From contig VHAX01000007.1 in assembly GCA_016872215.1 (NCBI GenBank), positions 1 through 64,000 of the forward strand: a stretch of DNA of 64,000 nt, written 5' to 3'. The notes below the pieces were generated by a model that made no database searches, had not been told where the DNA came from, and worked only from the letters and a program-made list of their open reading frames with translations. Of this stretch, positions 33,964 through 63,249 are shown one piece after another. The stretch is from Sphingomonadales bacterium. GTDB lineage: Bacteria > Bacteroidota > Bacteroidia > UBA7662. How positions within the stretch are numbered: position 1 is the stretch's first letter; every line of letters starts with the position of its first letter. The position numbers and the translations under genes are program-made.

Positions 33964-34638
33964 TTAGTTGAAAATCATCAGTGCATTGAGCAAGAAGAAA
34001 AAAATTAACTGAAATGCGGCATAAAGCAGCACCACCGGGTTCACACGTCTGATTCCGGCTATTTCGGCAAGCGACAATAAAACCACCGAAAACACCCACC
34101 ATGCCATGTAGTTGCGCATAGGAGCTACGAAAAAGCTACCCTCCCCTGGGGTGTCCCAGTCCCAGAAACCGAGAAATGCGGCAACAGGTTCAATAAGTAT
34201 ATCGGCCAGCATGACTGCCGTTGCACCCAAAAAGGGACGAATTTCGGGGGAGATCTGAGCAGCGAAGGATAAGTGGGCTGAGGCATAAATAAGCACCGTC
34301 CAGTTGACGCCAATTACCAGCGGTGCGCCTGCGGGGGCATATCCCAGTACGCTTCCATAGTGATAGGCCCCAAAAACATTTCCGGTTGCTACCCCATACA
34401 CCTCAATAAGCCAGCCCGCCAAACAACCTAATAAAAGCAAGACCGTGTGCGGCATGGGCACCGGGCGCTCCATCAACCAAACGTGCAGGGCGCCCAGAAA
34501 TAAAACATACGGTACAAACATTAAGAAAAATCCTCTGGTTGCGGGCCATGCCAATCCCAGTGCACCAATTCCATATACCATGCCCCAAAACAGGAGAAAA
34601 TAGCTGCGAACAGTTAGAATTTCGAGCAACCGCAACAT
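33964..34638 (-). CDS. cruF: CruF-like carotenoid 1',2'-hydratase (carotenoid biosynthesis membrane protein)
   Basis: A 224-residue membrane protein of the PF04240 carotenoid biosynthesis family. About seven hydrophobic segments surround the family blocks: GWLIEVYGVATGNVFGAYHY (about residues 72-91), PLVIGVNWTVLIYAS, and LADILIEPVAAFLGFWDWD (about 143-161). Members of this family (CruF) add water at the 1',2' position of gamma-carotene or lycopene, giving the 1'-OH seen in flexixanthin, myxol and saproxanthin. I start at the ATG at 34638, which overlaps the crtD stop by one base (TGATG); the longer frame lies in crtD. It should act just before the CrtD desaturase encoded upstream. Confidence 0.82.
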   Translation of the reverse strand: MLRLLEILTVRSYFLLFWGMVYGIGALGLAWPATRGFFLMFVPYVLFLGALHVWLMERPVPMPHTVLLLLGCLAGWLIEVYGVATGNVFGAYHYGSVLGYAPAGAPLVIGVNWTVLIYASAHLSFAAQISPEIRPFLGATAVMLADILIEPVAAFLGFWDWDTPGEGSFFVAPMRNYMAWWVFSVVLLSLAEIAGIRRVNPVVLLYAAFQLIFFFLLNALMIFN

Positions 34639-36317
34639 CAACGCTGGTGTTTTCTCGTTGCTTTTGGGTGGGGATGCCCGCGTTCCACAAGATCGGCAGT
34701 AATGGCAGCCGAGTGCAGGCACAACGGAATCCCACCTCCAGGGTGCACGGTTCCTCCACAGTAAAACAAACCCTTGATGCGGCGATCGCGATTCGCCTGG
34801 CGCAGGAAGGCCGAGCAGCGGCTGTTGGAGGCGGGGCCATACAAGGCACCGCCTACTGCCCCTGTGGCACGTTCCATTTCTATTGGCGTCAACACCCTCT
34901 TTTCTTCTATCAACGGGCGTAGATCTACCCCTACAGCCTGACCGATTCGATCCATAGCATCCTGACGCAAACGATCCAGTAACTCTTCCGACGGCAGTTC
35001 ACGCCGGGCGGGCACATTGGCCATCACAAACCAGTTTTCATAGCCATCGGGAGCATCGGTTGAGTTTTTCTTTGAGCTGATGTAGACATACCAAGTGGGG
35101 TCAATGTCAATGTCACCGCGCTGCAAATACTGGAATTCGCGCCGGTAATGGGAAGAAAAAAATACATTGTGCAAATCTAATTGAGGGAACACTCCCAGCA
35201 CTGCCCAATGAAACACAACGGCCGATGTGCTGAGTTCCTGCAATTGAAATCGAGATCGTCGGTATTTGCGGGGCAACTGTTTACGCTGCACCTGTAGTAT
35301 GTCGTTGGCGCAAACCACTATGGGGTAGATTTCGCGGTCCTCCCCCACGAGCAAACCCTTCAAACGGGTTTCATGAATCCACAACTGATCCACTCGGGTG
35401 CTGACTCTAACATTCACGCCCAAGTCCAATGCTAACTGGTGCAGGGCATCGCGAAGGGCCACCATACCCCCGCGGGGATAATATGCACCGCACTCTTGTT
35501 CGATATGGGCAATCATACTGAGGGTTCCGGGCGCCCTGTAGGGATCGCTGCCGTTGTAGGTCGCAAAGCGGCCGAACAACTGCAGACTACGTTCATGGCT
35601 CAGCCACCTTTTTTGAAAGCGGTGCATACTGGTGAAAATACCCAGGCGGGGAATCGCCAAAAGCCGCAAAAACGTAGTCGGCCGAAGCAAATTGCGCCAA
35701 TCGTGCAAGGATCGCTTAATAAAAACCGGAGCGGTAATGCGGTATATGAAAGACGCTCGTTTTAAAAAAGCCAGAACCTGTTGGGCAGGTTCTCCGATTT
35801 TCTGTTCCATTTCAGTGGCCAGTCGCCCGGGCTGTGACCAAGCATTGAGCTGGGTGCCATCGGTATAGAAATAGCGGGTCACCAAATCCAGCCGATCGTA
35901 GTGGACATAATCCGACATTTTTTTTCCACAGTCGGTAAACAGCTGCTCCATAACTTCCGGTAAGGTAAACAGTGATGGTCCACCGTCGAAACGAAATCCG
36001 TCGGACCGATAGTCGCGCATTTTCCCCCCCGTTTCCGGACCCGCCTCCAGTAAATCTACCTTGTAGCCACGCGTTGATAGTCGTGCCGCAGTGGCCAATC
36101 CCGCTACCCCACCCCCAATGACCGCCACCCGTTTGCCTGTGACCCCATACTCTTCCGACCGAGAGCGGTCAGGTCGCCGATGTCTGTGCCTGATCGGTTC
36201 CGCCTGGCTCAGTTCAGAATCCACGGAGCTGTCGCCTCGATTTTCTGCATTTTCTACCGGATGTGATTCCATCCCATATGCGGCTGAACGATGCTGTCTG
36301 CGGTGTCTGTGTTTCAT
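34638..36317 (-). CDS. crtD: CrtD-like carotenoid 3,4-desaturase with unusual N-terminal extension
   Basis: A 559-residue FAD-dependent carotenoid desaturase. The FAD-binding GGGVAGLATAARLSTRGYKV begins near residue 68; the family block GFRFDGGPSLFTLPEVMEQLF (about 110-130) has the GPSLFTLP form usual in CrtD, unlike the GPSWYWMP form of CrtI. The C-terminus has FYCGGTVHPGGGIPLCLHSA. CrtD introduces the 3',4' double bond in 1'-hydroxy carotenoids. The first 60 residues are unusual: a basic, polar tail in which an RHRHRR motif appears twice (about residues 3-8 and 43-48), each followed by a YG pair. No closer start exists except an ATG at residue 16. It is translationally linked to cruF. Confidence 0.85.
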   Translation of the reverse strand: MKHRHRRQHRSAAYGMESHPVENAENRGDSSVDSELSQAEPIRHRHRRPDRSRSEEYGVTGKRVAVIGGGVAGLATAARLSTRGYKVDLLEAGPETGGKMRDYRSDGFRFDGGPSLFTLPEVMEQLFTDCGKKMSDYVHYDRLDLVTRYFYTDGTQLNAWSQPGRLATEMEQKIGEPAQQVLAFLKRASFIYRITAPVFIKRSLHDWRNLLRPTTFLRLLAIPRLGIFTSMHRFQKRWLSHERSLQLFGRFATYNGSDPYRAPGTLSMIAHIEQECGAYYPRGGMVALRDALHQLALDLGVNVRVSTRVDQLWIHETRLKGLLVGEDREIYPIVVCANDILQVQRKQLPRKYRRSRFQLQELSTSAVVFHWAVLGVFPQLDLHNVFFSSHYRREFQYLQRGDIDIDPTWYVYISSKKNSTDAPDGYENWFVMANVPARRELPSEELLDRLRQDAMDRIGQAVGVDLRPLIEEKRVLTPIEMERATGAVGGALYGPASNSRCSAFLRQANRDRRIKGLFYCGGTVHPGGGIPLCLHSAAITADLVERGHPHPKATRKHQR

Positions 36318-36405: not shown

Positions 36406-37245
36406 CTAGAGCCAAGAAAGGCGATGCGACAAAACAGAACCGGCCAACAAGGCTGCCTTTTCCAAATTGCTGATCCGAATCCTCGTCTCCATCACGCGCG
36501 ATGGTTCTGTCCGCCGAATTTTGCGGAATAGATTCAGATAGAACCGATAAGCGGTAAGTACCCCCGTTCTGGAACCATGAGGCAACTGACGTATACCCTC
36601 ATAGGCCTTTCTGAAATCCTCTTCAATGTCGGCTTCAATCGCATTTTTGGCCCGTTGGTCGAAGTGAATGCCCAAATCCACGCCAGGAAAATAGGTGCGC
36701 CCCCTGTTTTGGTAATCATCTCGGATATCGCGCAGAAAATTAACCTTTTGGAATGCGGCACCGAGGTGGCGGGCAGCTGGTTTGAGACGGTCATATAGTT
36801 CGTTATTTCTCGCGCAAAACACGCGCAAACACATCAGGCCCACCACTTCTGCCGAGCCATAAATATACGTGTGGTATGAATTCTCGGCATATTCAATGTC
36901 CTGCAGATCCATAGCCATACTGTTGAGGAAGGCCTGAATTAAATCACGACCAATTCCATATTCGGAAACGATTTTCTGAAAGGAATCGAGTACCGGATTC
37001 AGACTGATGCCCCGCTCAATGGCATTCCAGGTATCCAGGGAAAATTCCTTAAACAGTTCTTCTTTATTGTAGTCGTGAAAAGTATCTACAATCTCATCGG
37101 CATAACGCACAAAAGCGTAAATCGCGTAGATGGGATCCCGGAACTTTTTGTCGAACGCCAGAATCCCCATGCTGAATGAGGTGCTGTAGTTGCGGGTAAT
37201 AATCCGACTGCATTCAATATTAGTGTGGCGGTAGAGTGATAACAT
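36406..37245 (-). CDS. crtB: phytoene synthase
   Basis: A 279-residue squalene/phytoene synthase. The two aspartate-rich motifs are present: ADEIVDTFHD (about residues 49-58) and NFLRDIRDDYQNRGRTYFP (about 172-190). NYSTSFSMGILAF near residue 19 is the usual N-terminal block. It joins two geranylgeranyl diphosphates to make phytoene, the first committed step to carotenoids. I use the ATG at 37245 (MLSLYRHTNIECSRI), which aligns with the family start, rather than the upstream GTG at 37305. It lies between crtI and crtD in the same direction. Confidence 0.94.
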   Translation of the reverse strand: MLSLYRHTNIECSRIITRNYSTSFSMGILAFDKKFRDPIYAIYAFVRYADEIVDTFHDYNKEELFKEFSLDTWNAIERGISLNPVLDSFQKIVSEYGIGRDLIQAFLNSMAMDLQDIEYAENSYHTYIYGSAEVVGLMCLRVFCARNNELYDRLKPAARHLGAAFQKVNFLRDIRDDYQNRGRTYFPGVDLGIHFDQRAKNAIEADIEEDFRKAYEGIRQLPHGSRTGVLTAYRFYLNLFRKIRRTEPSRVMETRIRISNLEKAALLAGSVLSHRLSWL

Positions 37246-37335
37246 AGATTCTTTTACCAACAAGAACCAACCAAACGGGATAAATGTTTTGAACAACTTA
37301 TCCACAAGAACTGGCAGTGGGGAAAAGCCGTACGG

Positions 37336-38814
37336 CTACAAGGGCCAGTCACGCTGGATTTCTCCGGTCACCACCTGCCCGGAAATTATGGTGGGGGGCA
37401 CGCCCGGACCAGGTATGGTCAGCTGACCTGTGAAATATAGATTCGTTAGTTTCTTGTGGCGCATCGACGGCTTAAAAATCGCGGTTTGGGCCAGGGTGTT
37501 GGCTAATCCATAGGCATTCCCCCCGAATGCGTGGTAGTCGCGCCGAAAATCGGAGTGGGCATAACTGTGGCGAAACTCTACCTGATCGCGGATGCCCATA
37601 CCCACCATATGTTCGAAGCGATCCATAACCTGATGATAGCAGCGTTCGCGGGCTTCATCCGGATCGGGCAGATCTACCGCCAGGGGTACCAGAATCACTA
37701 GGTTTTCTTTTCCTTCAGGCGCCACGGTGGAATCCGTTTTGCTGCTGAGTGAAGTGTAGAACAACGGATGATCTGGCCAGGATGGTCGTGCATAGATTTG
37801 TTCGGCGTGACGATCGAACTCCTCATCGAAAAACAAGCTGTGGTGTGTAAGTCCCGGCAACGGATTTTTCAGACCAATGTAGAACAGGAGGCTCGACGGC
37901 GCCATGGTTCTGCTTTTCCAATAGGCTGGACTGTATTGACGATGCGATGCGGGCAGCACATTCTGTTCGATATGGTGGTAATCGCCTGCGGCCACAACCA
38001 CATCGGCCTCATAGGTACTATGTGCCGCGTGTACGCACTTGGCGTGCGAACCCAAACACTCAATCGATTGCACTTCTGCATTGGCCATCAGCTCTACTCC
38101 CTTTTCCCTGGCGAGCGACACAAATGCCTTTACGATTTCACCCATACCGCCCATTGGATACCAGGTGCCGAGCGATAAATCGGCGTAGTTCATAAGGCTG
38201 TAGAGGGCGGGTGTGTTTTGGGGGGTAGCACCCAAAAAGAGAACCGGAAATTCCATGAGTTTGCGCAGGCGGGGCTCTTTAAAATGAGCATAGACATGGC
38301 TGCGCATCGACTGAAACACGTCCATTTTAAGCATATTCCGAAGCAGGGAAACGCTGGCGTATTCCATAACAGACCGATTTGGCTTGTAGACCAGGTCGCG
38401 CATACCAATCTGATATTTCTCACCTGCCTGAGCTAAAAACGATCTTAGTTTTTTCGCTGATCCAGACTGGTACTGCTCAAACATCCGTTCGATTTCTGTC
38501 ATTTGTGCTGGAATGGTCATCACATCATCCTTGCCAAAAAAGACCGAATAGCCAGGGTCGAGCCGCTGCAGTTGGTAGTAGTCGGACACTTTCTTGCCGA
38601 ACTGCGCGAAATAGGCTTCGAATACATCGGGCATCCAGTACCACGACGGCCCCATATCAAAACGAAAACCATGGCTTTCCATAACCCGGGCCCGCCCGCC
38701 GAAATGCGCGTTTTTTTCGAGCAGGGTAACCTTGTAGCCATTGTGTGCGAGGCTCGTGGCGGCAGATAATCCTGCGAACCCCGAGCCGATTACGATTACC
38801 CTGTTTTTTGGCAT
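37336..38814 (-). CDS. crtI: phytoene desaturase
   Basis: A 492-residue FAD-dependent CrtI desaturase. It opens with the dinucleotide fold VIVIGSGFAGLSAATSLAHN. Then come GFRFDMGPSWYWMPDVFEAY (about residues 50-69), the form typical of Bacteroidota CrtI, and near the end LYFTGQLTIPGPGVPPTIIS, the C-terminal FAD-contact block. CrtI turns colourless phytoene into lycopene or a related coloured intermediate. It is the first gene of the crtI-crtB-crtD-cruF row. About 90 bp downstream lies crtB, and a terminator separates crtI from the sigma-factor gene upstream. Confidence 0.95.
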   Translation of the reverse strand: MPKNRVIVIGSGFAGLSAATSLAHNGYKVTLLEKNAHFGGRARVMESHGFRFDMGPSWYWMPDVFEAYFAQFGKKVSDYYQLQRLDPGYSVFFGKDDVMTIPAQMTEIERMFEQYQSGSAKKLRSFLAQAGEKYQIGMRDLVYKPNRSVMEYASVSLLRNMLKMDVFQSMRSHVYAHFKEPRLRKLMEFPVLFLGATPQNTPALYSLMNYADLSLGTWYPMGGMGEIVKAFVSLAREKGVELMANAEVQSIECLGSHAKCVHAAHSTYEADVVVAAGDYHHIEQNVLPASHRQYSPAYWKSRTMAPSSLLFYIGLKNPLPGLTHHSLFFDEEFDRHAEQIYARPSWPDHPLFYTSLSSKTDSTVAPEGKENLVILVPLAVDLPDPDEARERCYHQVMDRFEHMVGMGIRDQVEFRHSYAHSDFRRDYHAFGGNAYGLANTLAQTAIFKPSMRHKKLTNLYFTGQLTIPGPGVPPTIISGQVVTGEIQRDWPL

Positions 38815-38965: not shown

Positions 38966-39493
38966 TTAAGCAACCTGCATTCCGTAGGCTTCACCAAACA
39001 CATGAAGCTTTTTCTTAAGAATTTGTCGCGCCATATGGATGCGAGTCTTCACCGTTCCGATGGGGATGCCAAAATGGTCGGCAATTTCCTGGTATTTATA
39101 ACCCCGGAAATTCATCATAAAGGCTTCCTTTAAGTCATAAGGTAAGCGATTTATATGCATATGAATCTGTTCCATATTGAGACGCTCAAGGCTCTCATTG
39201 GGCACGGCATGTGCTGAACTGTTGAGGTAGTACTCATTTTCCGTGGAGTCAAGCAAAGTACTGCGCTTTACCTTTCTCCTGTACTGATTGATAAAGGTGT
39301 TCTTCATGATGGTATACAACCAGCCCTTCAGATTGGTATCGTCGGTAAACCGCTCACGATGGGTGAACGCCTTGAGCAGCGTCTCTTGCATCAGGTCGTG
39401 GGCGTCCTCCCGATTCTGTGATAAATAAAGGGCATACGCTTTCAGGGCTACTCCATTCTCTCTCACTTTGACACTGAAGGTATTAGAATCCAT
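38966..39493 (-). CDS. ECF-type RNA polymerase sigma factor upstream of the crt genes
   Basis: A 175-residue ECF sigma factor. Region 2 is visible as the NREDAHDLMQETLLKAFTHR helix (about 27-46) and NLKGWLYTIMKNTFINQYRR (about 53-72). Region 4 near the C-terminus (LPYDLKEAFMMNFRGYKYQE, then FGIPIGTVKTRIHMARQIL) has the helix-turn-helix that reads the -33 element. I start at the ATG at 39493 (MDSNTFSVKVRENGVAL). No anti-sigma gene is adjacent. Its position just above crtI suggests control of carotenoid genes, but a strong terminator lies between, so any effect would act in trans through crt promoters. Confidence 0.9.
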   Translation of the reverse strand: MDSNTFSVKVRENGVALKAYALYLSQNREDAHDLMQETLLKAFTHRERFTDDTNLKGWLYTIMKNTFINQYRRKVKRSTLLDSTENEYYLNSSAHAVPNESLERLNMEQIHMHINRLPYDLKEAFMMNFRGYKYQEIADHFGIPIGTVKTRIHMARQILKKKLHVFGEAYGMQVA

Positions 39494-39516
39494 GTTTAAG
39501 TTTTTTGGTTGAATTG

Positions 39517-39590
39517 TTAAACAAAAGTATAGTGCCTGCAACTAATTTCCAAACTTTTGTTTAACTTTTTTTAATTTTACTTAAACAAAA
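39517..39590. promoter_or_regulatory. three copies of TTAAACAAAA in alternating orientation (operator candidate)
   Basis: The 10-mer TTAAACAAAA occurs at 39517-39526 (plus strand), inverted at 39555-39564, and again at 39581-39590 (plus strand). The first two are part of a longer perfect 13-bp inverted repeat, GTTAAACAAAAGT (39516-39528) and ACTTTTGTTTAAC (39553-39565), with a 24-bp spacer. This repeat brackets the sigma-factor promoter: the left arm covers the -7 box and the right arm the -33 box. That is where a repressor or a MerR-type regulator would bind. Confidence 0.65.
39522..39553 (-). promoter_or_regulatory. promoter of the ECF sigma-factor gene
   Basis: On the minus strand, TTTG (39550-39553), 20 bases, then TACTTTTG (39522-39529) fit the Bacteroidota TTTG/TAnnTTTG pattern with the usual spacing. 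The transcript would start near 39516, leaving a leader of about 23 bases before the ATG at 39493. Confidence 0.65.
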
Positions 39591-39755: not shown

Positions 39756-40247
39756 TCACATTACAAAATATCGTTTATACCGTGGAGATCGGTAACGCAT
39801 CAGAAGTAAGAGCATCCACCGCATCAGGAAACGTGGAATCCATGGGGCCTCACGAAAACGTATGGCATCGGTAATGTAAGTCACGCGCGCGCTTATCTCA
39901 ATGATCCCATGAAAATGCTCCCAACTGCGCAGGAAAAATGGCAGACGAACTCCCTGGTCCACAAACCAGTAATGGCTGTAGGACTCAGCCTGGGCTGTAA
40001 TCACGCCCGTCCAATCTTGGGAGAAGAGTCCGAAATCCAACTTGAGTTCGATTCGATGGCCCGGTAAATTACCATCCATACGGATCAGGTGGGTGCGGGG
40101 AAACGGCGGGTTGAGGACACTAAAGAGGGGTGAGCCGAAGCCAGCAACGACACGATCAAAGGGGGCATCCACGAGTGTGCCGACTACAACATCGGCCGGA
40201 CCAGGTGAATGAAAGGGATAATGAAGGAATTGGTGGCTCACGTTCAA
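39756..40247 (-). CDS. SRPBCC-family protein (START-like)
   Basis: A protein of about 163 residues resembling the SRPBCC/START-like family often found near photolyase and carotenoid genes in Bacteroidota. Core blocks are LNPPFPRTHLIRMDGNLPGH, the strand pair ELKLDFGLFSQDWTGVIT, and YWFVDQGVRLPFFLRSWEHF. These proteins have a cavity for a hydrophobic ligand; here the ligand is unknown. There is no ATG at a sensible place: the TTG at 40247 or the GTG at 40241 are the likely starts, and the longer open frame runs into the photolyase remnant. It lies 55 bp after that pseudogene on the same strand, so the two were once probably an operon. Confidence 0.72.
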   Translation of the reverse strand: MNVSHQFLHYPFHSPGPADVVVGTLVDAPFDRVVAGFGSPLFSVLNPPFPRTHLIRMDGNLPGHRIELKLDFGLFSQDWTGVITAQAESYSHYWFVDQGVRLPFFLRSWEHFHGIIEISARVTYITDAIRFREAPWIPRFLMRWMLLLLMRYRSPRYKRYFVM

Positions 40248-40302: not shown

Positions 40303-40962
40303 CTAAGAGAGCGCTTCAGCCTTGAACAAAAGAGCTTCACGCTTGCTTCTGTCCGTATGGTCCCAATTGCGGTAGACCATAGCCAGACAAACATTAGAGT
40401 TCAACAATCGTTCATGTCGATCGTGGAAATGCCAGTAGAGGCTGTTAAATTGACAAACATTCGGCTCGGTAGAAAGGTTGGGGTTGTAGCGACAAGAACC
40501 ACAGTAGTCACCCATTCGCCTGATGTATTGACCCGACGAGGTATAGGGTTTGCTCACCATAAGTCCACCATCGGCAGACTGACTCATGCCACGGGTGTCG
40601 GGCTGCTGGCAGGCACCTCCAGCGCCCGGATACCAAGCCAGGACACGTTCGAGGTTGCCGGTAATCGACTGGCAGTTCTCCGGGTCATTCAGATATATGT
40701 AGTGTAGTGTATGTCCATAGTCATTCAACCACCGGGAAAATGAGCGCATGGACATGAAAAATGTTACAACTTTCTGGATGTGGTGCTGGCAGTAGTCGGT
40801 ATCGCTCCTGCATTTCATCATCACATACAAGACGTCAGGTCTACACTTCCGAAACCAGCTGTGCAGATGGTTCAGCTTGTCGCCCAATATCAATCGGATT
40901 TCGGTGATTGGCTCCAATGGAAAATCGCGAGATGCTTCGATGCTTTGCAACCTTGCAAACAC
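40303..40962 (-). pseudogene. FeS-type bacterial cryptochrome/photolyase (PhrB-like) with large internal deletion
   Basis: An open frame of 219 codons made of two ends of a protein normally about 500 residues long. The N-terminal part has IRLILGDKLNHLHSWF, VLYVMMKCRSDTDYCQHHIQ and FSRWLNDYGHTLHYIYL, the photolyase-like nucleotide-binding domain. After NLERVLAWYPG it jumps to DTRGMSQSADGGLMVSKPY, IRRMGDYCGSCRYNPN and CQFNSLYWHFHDRHERLL, the FAD-domain end. Three of the four FeS-cluster cysteines (CxxC, then Cys) survive, but the fourth, the substrate region and most of the FAD pocket (about 290 residues) are gone. A stop also falls early: the out-of-frame-free reading RIEQL continues past it. 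It is therefore a nonfunctional DNA-repair/photoreceptor gene. Confidence 0.85.
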
Positions 40963-61828: not shown

Positions 61829-62308
61829 TCAACGGGCAGGATCTCTTCTGAGATCAGAATCGGCTCTCTGGTCGGAGAAGTAGCGGTAATGAAAAAAGAG
61901 CAGGCCATAACTTTCGCCGGGCTGGGCTGTGGTGTGCTTGTGGTGCATACGGTGTGCCGTCCTGAGGGCTATTAAATAACGGGAAACTGGCTTTGGGAAT
62001 GAGCCCAACCGTGAATGAACCAAAATATCATGCAAAACGAAATATACGAGTCCATATACAGATACGCCTGCACCTGCATATCCCCAAAAAATGGGAATAA
62101 TCTCAAGGAATCCACCAAAAAGCAAAGCCACTCCAACTGAACCGAACAACACAGCAAACCAATCATTTAGTTCCCATCCACCTTTCGGTTTGTGGTGTGT
62201 TTGATGAATCCACCACAGGGGGCCATGCATTAGGTAGCGGTGAATGAGAGAAGATACCACTTCAATGCCCAGGAAGCCGGTGATCCATCCAAAAATTACC
62301 GTCAGCAT
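61829..62308 (-). CDS. crtZ: beta-carotene 3-hydroxylase
   Basis: A 159-residue sterol-desaturase-superfamily membrane enzyme of the CrtZ type. The four histidine motifs are SSLIHRYLMH (HxxxxH, about 20-29), WIHQTHH (HxxHH, about 33-39), FVLHDILVHSR (HDxxVH, about 91-101) and RTAHRMHHKH (HxxHH, about 117-126). CrtZ adds 3-hydroxyl groups to beta-ionone rings. It starts seven bases before the merR stop, so the two are translationally linked. It lies 23 kb from the crtI-crtB-crtD-cruF row. Confidence 0.93.
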   Translation of the reverse strand: MLTVIFGWITGFLGIEVVSSLIHRYLMHGPLWWIHQTHHKPKGGWELNDWFAVLFGSVGVALLFGGFLEIIPIFWGYAGAGVSVYGLVYFVLHDILVHSRLGSFPKPVSRYLIALRTAHRMHHKHTTAQPGESYGLLFFHYRYFSDQRADSDLRRDPAR

Positions 62309-63249
62309 ACTGTCTCAAAACAATCTATCAAATCCGAAAAATCGCTCATGAGAGTGACCCCATGAAGGGAATTCTCCGACGATGCATTTAGGGCAGATTT
62401 TCCTGAGGCTAAAATTTCAGTCTGGGGGAAATCAGTACACAATTGCATCAAATAATCAGCAGCGGTTATGTCAACCTGCGCCGATGTTAAAATACACAAA
62501 AGCGCCTGTGGCTTGTAGGTCAAATAGATCGTTTTGAGATCACAATAGGGCACATTCGCCCCTAAATATACTGTATGGTGGCCTCTGGATCGAATCACGT
62601 AATGGGCAAAAAGAAGTCCCAGTTCGTGAAATTCATCTTCTGGCAGAAAGAGCAGGTATTTTCTGGAATTCTCGTGCTCAGCAAAATCGATTTGGTCGAT
62701 CGAAACAATCAGCTTCTGACGGATCAAATGGGTTATGAAATGCTCATGAGCTGGGGTTATGGTTCCGGTCTGCCACATGAAACCGATGGCCCGAAAAAAT
62801 GGAAAAACTATATCGAGCATGACCCGCTCCAAGCCCGAATCCCGAATAAATACGGAGAGTAGCTGAGTGAAACCCGGCTCATTGAGCTGCAGCATGTGCA
62901 TGGTGAGCGATTGGATGCGGATTTCATTGCCAGTGCAGGTCAGACTCAGGTCCAATACCCGGCTCGACAATTCCTCCTCACTCATCCGGGCCAAAACCGA
63001 TACTTTGTAGCCTTGTTGACTCAAGTAAGACAGGTTGAGCAGTTTTCTGAGATCAGTTTCATTATAGTATCTGATGTTTCCAGGGGTGCGACGGGGCTCG
63101 AACATTTGGAATCTTTGTTCCCACATCCGAATGGTGTGTGCCTTCACACCACTCAAAACCTCCATATCTTTGATTGAGAACTGTTTCACCCCAACAAAAC
63201 ACCCTATTGGGATTTTTGTTTTCCGTGGCTCCTTCTTTATCATCAACAT
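62302..63249 (-). CDS. MerR-type regulator with B12-binding domain (CarH/LitR-like photoreceptor)
   Basis: A 315-residue regulator. Residues about 22-90 are a MerR helix-turn-helix (FSIKDMEVLSGVKAHTIRMW, then RYYNETDLRKLLNLSYLSQQ). The rest is a B12-binding domain: the light-sensing helical cap motif W-x9-EH is Trp159...Glu169-His170 (WQTGTITPAHEHFI), and the cobalamin site is Glu206-Phe-His208-Glu-Leu-Gly211 (the ExHxxG variant of DxHxxG), with HTVYLGANVP following. Such proteins (CarH, LitR) bind adenosylcobalamin, repress carotenoid genes in the dark, and release DNA when light breaks the Co-C bond. Co-transcription with crtZ fits. Light sensing itself is inferred, not shown. Confidence 0.9.
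   Translation of the reverse strand: MLMIKKEPRKTKIPIGCFVGVKQFSIKDMEVLSGVKAHTIRMWEQRFQMFEPRRTPGNIRYYNETDLRKLLNLSYLSQQGYKVSVLARMSEEELSSRVLDLSLTCTGNEIRIQSLTMHMLQLNEPGFTQLLSVFIRDSGLERVMLDIVFPFFRAIGFMWQTGTITPAHEHFITHLIRQKLIVSIDQIDFAEHENSRKYLLFLPEDEFHELGLLFAHYVIRSRGHHTVYLGANVPYCDLKTIYLTYKPQALLCILTSAQVDITAADYLMQLCTDFPQTEILASGKSALNASSENSLHGVTLMSDFSDLIDCFETVC

Follow-up and report, generated by a model that had tools for sequence, protein, structure and literature searches.

The ECF-type sigma gene at the head of a carotenoid (crt) cluster in this bacterium is preceded by several copies of one short sequence, which raises the question of what binds there and whether this binding controls pigment synthesis. 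Light-induced carotenoid synthesis has been described in the Bacteroidota for Chryseobacterium lacus, with the regulator not named (PMC7064467). We analyzed a window of 64,000 nt (the whole stretch of DNA presented here), the 2.09-Mb genome to which it belongs, and related genomes from the Bacteroidia. The features discussed are collected in Table 1.

Table 1. Features of the sigma promoter, the carotenoid cluster and the carH locus in the window.
Feature	Position	Strand	Basis or remark
Candidate operator site A	39557-39588	-	TTGTTTAA-N16-TTAAACAA, 0 mismatches; abuts the -33 box on its upstream side
-33 element TTTG	39550-39553	-	Sequence; TTG kept in most aligned relatives
-7 element TACTTTTG	39522-39529	-	20 nt from the -33 box; TAnnTTTG kept in most aligned relatives
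Candidate operator site B	39492-39524	-	TTGTTTAA-N17-TTAAACAT, 1 mismatch; ends over the sigma start codon
ECF-type sigma factor, at the head of the crt cluster	38966-39493	-	Pfam Sigma70_r2 and Sigma70_r4_2
crtI, phytoene desaturase	37336-38814	-	NCBIfam CrtID, above cut-off
crtB-like phytoene/squalene synthase	36406-37251	-	Pfam SQS_PSY, E 5e-46
crtD-like carotenoid desaturase	34638-36317	-	NCBIfam best match CrtD, below its cut-off
CruF-like carotenoid hydratase (Caroten_synth)	33964-34722	-	Pfam PF04240, E 2e-25
CrtZ-like FA_hydroxylase gene, overlaps the end of carH	61829-62308	-	Pfam PF04116, E 9e-11
CarH-like MerR/B12-binding regulator, proposed to bind sites A and B	62302-63249	-	Similarity to solved CarH

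Two inverted repeats at the sigma promoter

The first-pass annotation described three exact copies of the 10-mer TTAAACAAAA on alternating strands upstream of the sigma gene, and we find them at the positions it gave: 39517-39526 (+), 39555-39564 (-) and 39581-39590 (+). It saw no comparable cluster elsewhere in the window, and our scan of the 64,000 nt indeed returned no further exact copy. The genome as a whole contains 11 exact copies in 2.09 Mb, three of them at this promoter; with a background of about 8 per 2.09 Mb, we estimate that only about 3e-7 clusters of three copies in 74 bp are expected per genome. Single half-sites with one mismatch are found in the window at the expected frequency (7 versus 6.1 expected), and the cluster alone is unusual. 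Had the motif been common and shown no enrichment close to crt or stress genes, this would have spoken against the original proposal, but it is not what we observe.

The perfect 13-bp inverted repeat that had been placed over both promoter boxes exists as well (GTTAAACAAAAGT at 39516-39528 and ACTTTTGTTTAAC at 39553-39565); its first arm overlaps the -7 box and its second touches the -33 TTTG. However, the half-sites had been paired incorrectly. The two arms of the 13-bp repeat come from different units, which its 40-bp gap bridges, and relatives keep pairs separated by 16 nt; we therefore rejected it as the unit. The set of three half-sites was also incomplete, since a fourth, ATGTTTAA at 39492-39499, over the sigma start codon, had been overlooked. 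Judged from the sequence comparisons, what is conserved as a unit is an inverted repeat, TTGTTTAA-N16-TTAAACAA, of which the sigma promoter carries two copies.

The sigma gene reads leftwards from an ATG at 39493. On its strand site A, which reads TTGTTTAAGTAAAATTAAAAAAAGTTAAACAA (39588-39557), is followed by the -33 TTTG (39553-39550), 20 nt, the -7 element TACTTTTG (39529-39522), and site B, which reads TTGTTTAACAATTCAACCAAAAAACTTAAACAT (39524-39492); site B begins with the TTG of the -7 box. TAnnTTTG is the -7 consensus of the flavobacterial primary sigma factor and of the Bacteroidota (PMC9723704). Site A is the sole exact N16 repeat in the 2.09-Mb genome, and site B is the top N17 match genome-wide. 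Outside the sigma promoter this genome holds no N16 or N17 match with fewer than two mismatches, and matches with two occur at background level. Because sites A and B are the best matches, the main target in this genome seems to be the sigma promoter.

The repeats are conserved well beyond the genus, within which the sigma orthologues are 95-96% identical. We collected the upstream regions of 30 sigma orthologues from the genus, family, order and class, counting N16 or N17 repeats with at most two mismatches. At least one repeat is present in all 30, compared to 0.15 expected from dinucleotide shuffles, and 21 of the 30 carry two, mostly 62-65 bp or about six helical turns apart. The equivalents of site A lie at about -95/-71 and those of site B at about -31/-7, and both inverted repeats are retained despite diverging spacers. 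Shuffling the window region 3000 times never produced a perfect repeat. The spacing itself is distinctive: 60 genomes yielded 66 exact half-site pairs with spacings from 6 to 36, of which 31 show N16 and 8 show N17, and every other spacing accounts for at most 4. In one relative (L022:1421-1439; G022:C34:39366-39384) two half-sites of the sigma promoter form a tandem direct repeat of 11 bp, which is the canonical CarH spacing, and a weaker inverted pair is also present.

Association of the repeat with CarH-like genes

In 247 Bacteroidia genomes, with the presence of a CarH-like gene called at E<=1e-20, the exact N16 repeat is found in 95 of the 159 genomes that contain such a gene and in 2 of the 88 that do not (Fisher p 2e-22, a value that overstates independence since the genomes are related and not phylogenetically independent). 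Counted as sites, 149 are in genomes with the gene versus 2 in genomes without it. Divided by gene content, the exact repeat occurs in 23 of 27 genomes with CarH only, in 0 of 26 with the sigma factor only, in 72 of 132 with both, and in 2 of 62 with neither; the contrast between the first two groups persists at stricter sigma cut-offs. No exact repeat is found in 64 of the genomes with a CarH-like gene, some of which have versions with one or two mismatches. The two genomes that have the exact repeat and no CarH match at this threshold are G096 and G161.

The repeat also lies next to carH itself. In about 20 genomes an exact copy is found within 300 bp of the gene, either past its 3' end, mostly in the gap between it and the sigma or crt genes, or 6-68 bp upstream; in some instances crtI comes next, with the sigma gene absent nearby. 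The gene order carH, sigma, crtI, crtB with the repeat between carH and sigma is found in Schleiferia thermophila (L144), Thermaurantimonas aggregans (L146) and several species of Brumimicrobium. In this lineage, carH is located beside the crtZ-like gene and separated from the operator by about 23 kb, whereas much of the class has it directly upstream of the sigma gene. We looked for the repeat upstream of the window carH and found none there.

Away from crt, we assigned targets as the genes nearest to exact repeats. The exact repeat directly precedes a rhodopsin gene with blh (L118:1501-3031) and a rhodopsin gene with a lycopene cyclase gene (L124:1501-3030), which suggests that CarH may control rhodopsin in some Bacteroidia. 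It precedes or flanks PTPS-folE (L103) and folE (L120), genes for fasciclin proteins (L125, L081) and for an SDR-DUF2867 protein (L128), and it lies beside genes for DUF4397 proteins in five genomes (L074, L089, L107, L108, L116). In Pseudomonas, the CarH relatives PplR and PmlR have photolyase, cryptochrome and folE among their light-inducible targets (PMC9758184). Targets without known function that flank the repeat are no evidence for light.

The first-pass annotation had named the CarH-like protein of the window, or another repressor, as a possible binder, and the comparative data strengthen the case for the former: the repeat follows CarH and not the sigma factor, adjoins carH, and precedes light-related genes. 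These patterns suggest that the repeat is very probably the docking site of a vitamin-B12 light-sensing repressor of the CarH type.

The CarH-like protein and known operators

The regulator in the window is similar to solved CarH structures (3whp, E 9e-21; 5c8d, E 4e-20), and its domains (MerR_1, 1e-13; B12-binding_2, 5e-6) give it the N-terminal MerR HTH and B12-binding bundle of these proteins. The NCBIfam CarH equivalog is its best match, but with 96.6 bits against a cut-off of 400. The W-x9-EH motif and the lower cobalt ligand are present as Trp131, Glu141, His142 and His177, and the cobalamin pocket is nearly invariant among 48 CarH-like orthologues (Trp131 in 46; Glu141, His142, Glu175 and His177 in all 48). 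His132 is replaced by Gln in the window protein and by residues other than His in 47 of the 48; G192 is kept in 39, and R176 and D201 are mostly replaced. In Thermus thermophilus CarH, His132 takes over the cobalt after light exposure, giving bis-His ligation, and the H132A variant is largely tetrameric after illumination (PMC10442372); according to an earlier report, as cited in that paper, full-length H132A still disassembles in light. R176 and D201 form the salt bridge of the CarH dimer, and G192 is located at the interface between dimers (PMC8221060). With the pocket residues kept, and with His132 and the R176/D201 pair changed, the window protein likely binds adenosylcobalamin (AdoCbl), but its light-release step and its oligomer may differ from those of T. 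thermophilus CarH.

In T. thermophilus, Bacillus megaterium and myxobacteria, the known CarH operators consist of 11-bp direct repeats in tandem, nnnnTnnACAn, with the core TnnACA (PMC9304148). The repeats described here share this core, which reads TAAACA in every consensus arm, and they likewise overlap the promoter boxes of a carotenoid transcription unit. However, their half-sites are inverted, with a pitch of 24 bp, and form two separated units, and the proteins that we propose to bind them differ from the characterised CarH proteins at His132 and in the R176/D201 salt bridge. Exact tandem 11-bp CarH repeats are not clearly enriched in the 247 genomes (11 sites versus 6 control sites), and we rejected these canonical repeats as the operator here.

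The class II LitR proteins of Pseudomonas (PplR1/PmlR2) recognize T(G/A)TACA-N12-TGTA(C/T)A, and footprinting of PmlR2 revealed a pair of sites at each promoter, the first at the -35 box and the other between the start site and the ATG (PMC9758184). Spaced half-site pairs, two sites per promoter in a matching layout, and folE in the regulon are features in common with our repeats, whereas the half-site is TTAAACAA instead of TGTACA and the pitch 24 bp instead of 18 bp, with N16 in place of N12. The class II LitR of P. mendocina is controlled by a LOV protein (PMC9758184), whereas the window CarH keeps its cobalamin-pocket residues. The CarA operator of Myxococcus xanthus consists of inverted repeats that overlap promoter elements and bind two dimers cooperatively (PMC9304148). 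The sites described here resemble it in having inverted repeats over the elements of one promoter; the sequence is different, and CarA is B12-independent and uses the antirepressor CarS (PMC9304148). As an arrangement of genes, the closest parallel in kind is Streptomyces LitR-LitS, in which an ECF sigma gene is under the control of a B12-based MerR regulator and its product directs the carotenoid genes (PMC12705666). That system belongs to another phylum, its LitR is described as promoting litS transcription in light (PMC12705666), and it also differs in that carH and the sigma gene are about 23 kb apart in our window. The type of switch, from B12 regulator through ECF sigma factor to carotenoids, is thus already known; the site sequence and its inverted 24-bp geometry set the present case apart. 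We know of no TTAAACAA operator for LitR-LitS, and our search of the open-access literature found no paper describing the TTGTTTAA-N16-TTAAACAA site.

A proposed light switch and its alternatives

Taken together, the sequence evidence makes it probable that the region is a double operator through which the CarH-like repressor, gated by AdoCbl and light, governs the promoter of the ECF sigma-crt unit. What the sequences show is that the sites exist, are conserved, overlap promoter elements and go together with CarH; we infer that CarH binds them directly as a repressor, that it depends on AdoCbl and responds to light, and that the sigma factor amplifies crt expression. CarH carrying AdoCbl, as dimers or a tetramer, would occupy both TTGTTTAA-N16/17-TTAAACAA inverted repeats in the dark. 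Since site A is adjacent to the -33 box and site B extends across the -7 box and the predicted start site to the start codon, their occupation would keep the housekeeping RNA polymerase off the sigma promoter. Light would break the Co-C bond of AdoCbl and CarH would leave the DNA; the sigma factor would then be made, and crtI-crtB-crtD-cruF behind it would be expressed.

Chance similarity might be suspected, as the intergenic region is AT-rich and single half-sites with one mismatch are no more frequent in the window than expected; but the presence of the repeat before every sigma orthologue examined, the failure of any shuffle to reproduce it, and its distribution by CarH status refute this explanation, whose probability we regard as negligible. 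One could also assume that the ECF sigma factor itself recognizes the repeats and autoregulates its promoter, given that its gene lies directly downstream and that the TTG of the -7 box falls in one half-site. However, sites of sigma factors are directional -35/-10 pairs and not inverted repeats extending to the start codon, and the promoter matches the housekeeping consensus TAnnTTTG (PMC9723704). The contrast between CarH-only and sigma-only genomes led us to reject autoregulation, which we consider very unlikely.

Another possibility is that a different dimeric regulator that co-occurs with CarH binds the repeats, with CarH acting indirectly or elsewhere. Binding by CarH is here a prediction, and the residues involved in the light response (His132) and in dimerisation (R176 and D201) have changed; nevertheless, the position of the repeat beside or before carH in many genomes and the agreement of its core with CarH/LitR half-sites make this explanation rather improbable. 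There is a small but appreciable chance that CarH does bind, but without gating by light and AdoCbl, either constitutively or under redox or antirepressor control as in CarA or PmlR2. The loss of His132 in nearly all orthologues and the largely tetrameric state of illuminated T. thermophilus H132A (PMC10442372) are in line with such a repressor, as is the finding that CarA and class II LitR repress without a B12 light switch of their own (PMC9304148, PMC9758184). On the other hand, the near invariance of Trp131, Glu141, His142, Glu175 and His177 would be surprising in proteins that make no use of AdoCbl, and full-length H132A still disassembles in light according to the report cited in PMC10442372. 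Of these explanations we prefer the AdoCbl- and light-gated double operator; the unusual operator geometry, the loss of His132, the replacement of R176 and D201, the distant window carH with no site of its own upstream, and the 64 CarH-containing genomes that lack an exact repeat weigh against it.

More tentatively, and with slightly less than even confidence, we suggest that the Bacteroidia may possess a distinct branch of CarH proteins that lack His132, with a private operator TTGTTTAA-N16-TTAAACAA, a light regulon of carotenoid genes, rhodopsin pumps and pterin/folE genes, and a release photochemistry unlike that of T. thermophilus. Our comparisons as a whole predict, across the class, a candidate regulator together with the site it binds and the genes it targets, rhodopsin genes among them, which provides a testable answer to how Bacteroidia turn on pigment in light. 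The loss of His132 poses the mechanistic question of how such CarH proteins would release DNA in light, and the short, specific site could be used to build light-controlled promoter parts in Bacteroidota.

Two genes upstream of the cluster deserve mention. A DPRP photolyase-related gene (40303-40962, -) encodes 219 aa, with an N-terminal part joined to the C-terminus, and its counterpart in a sister genome encodes 544 aa (L133:3519-5153); the short version looks like the result of an internal deletion or an assembly error. Between this gene and the sigma operator lies a gene for a small protein of about 161 aa (39756-40241, -), without a Pfam match, that is kept in the genus and in G006 (L099).
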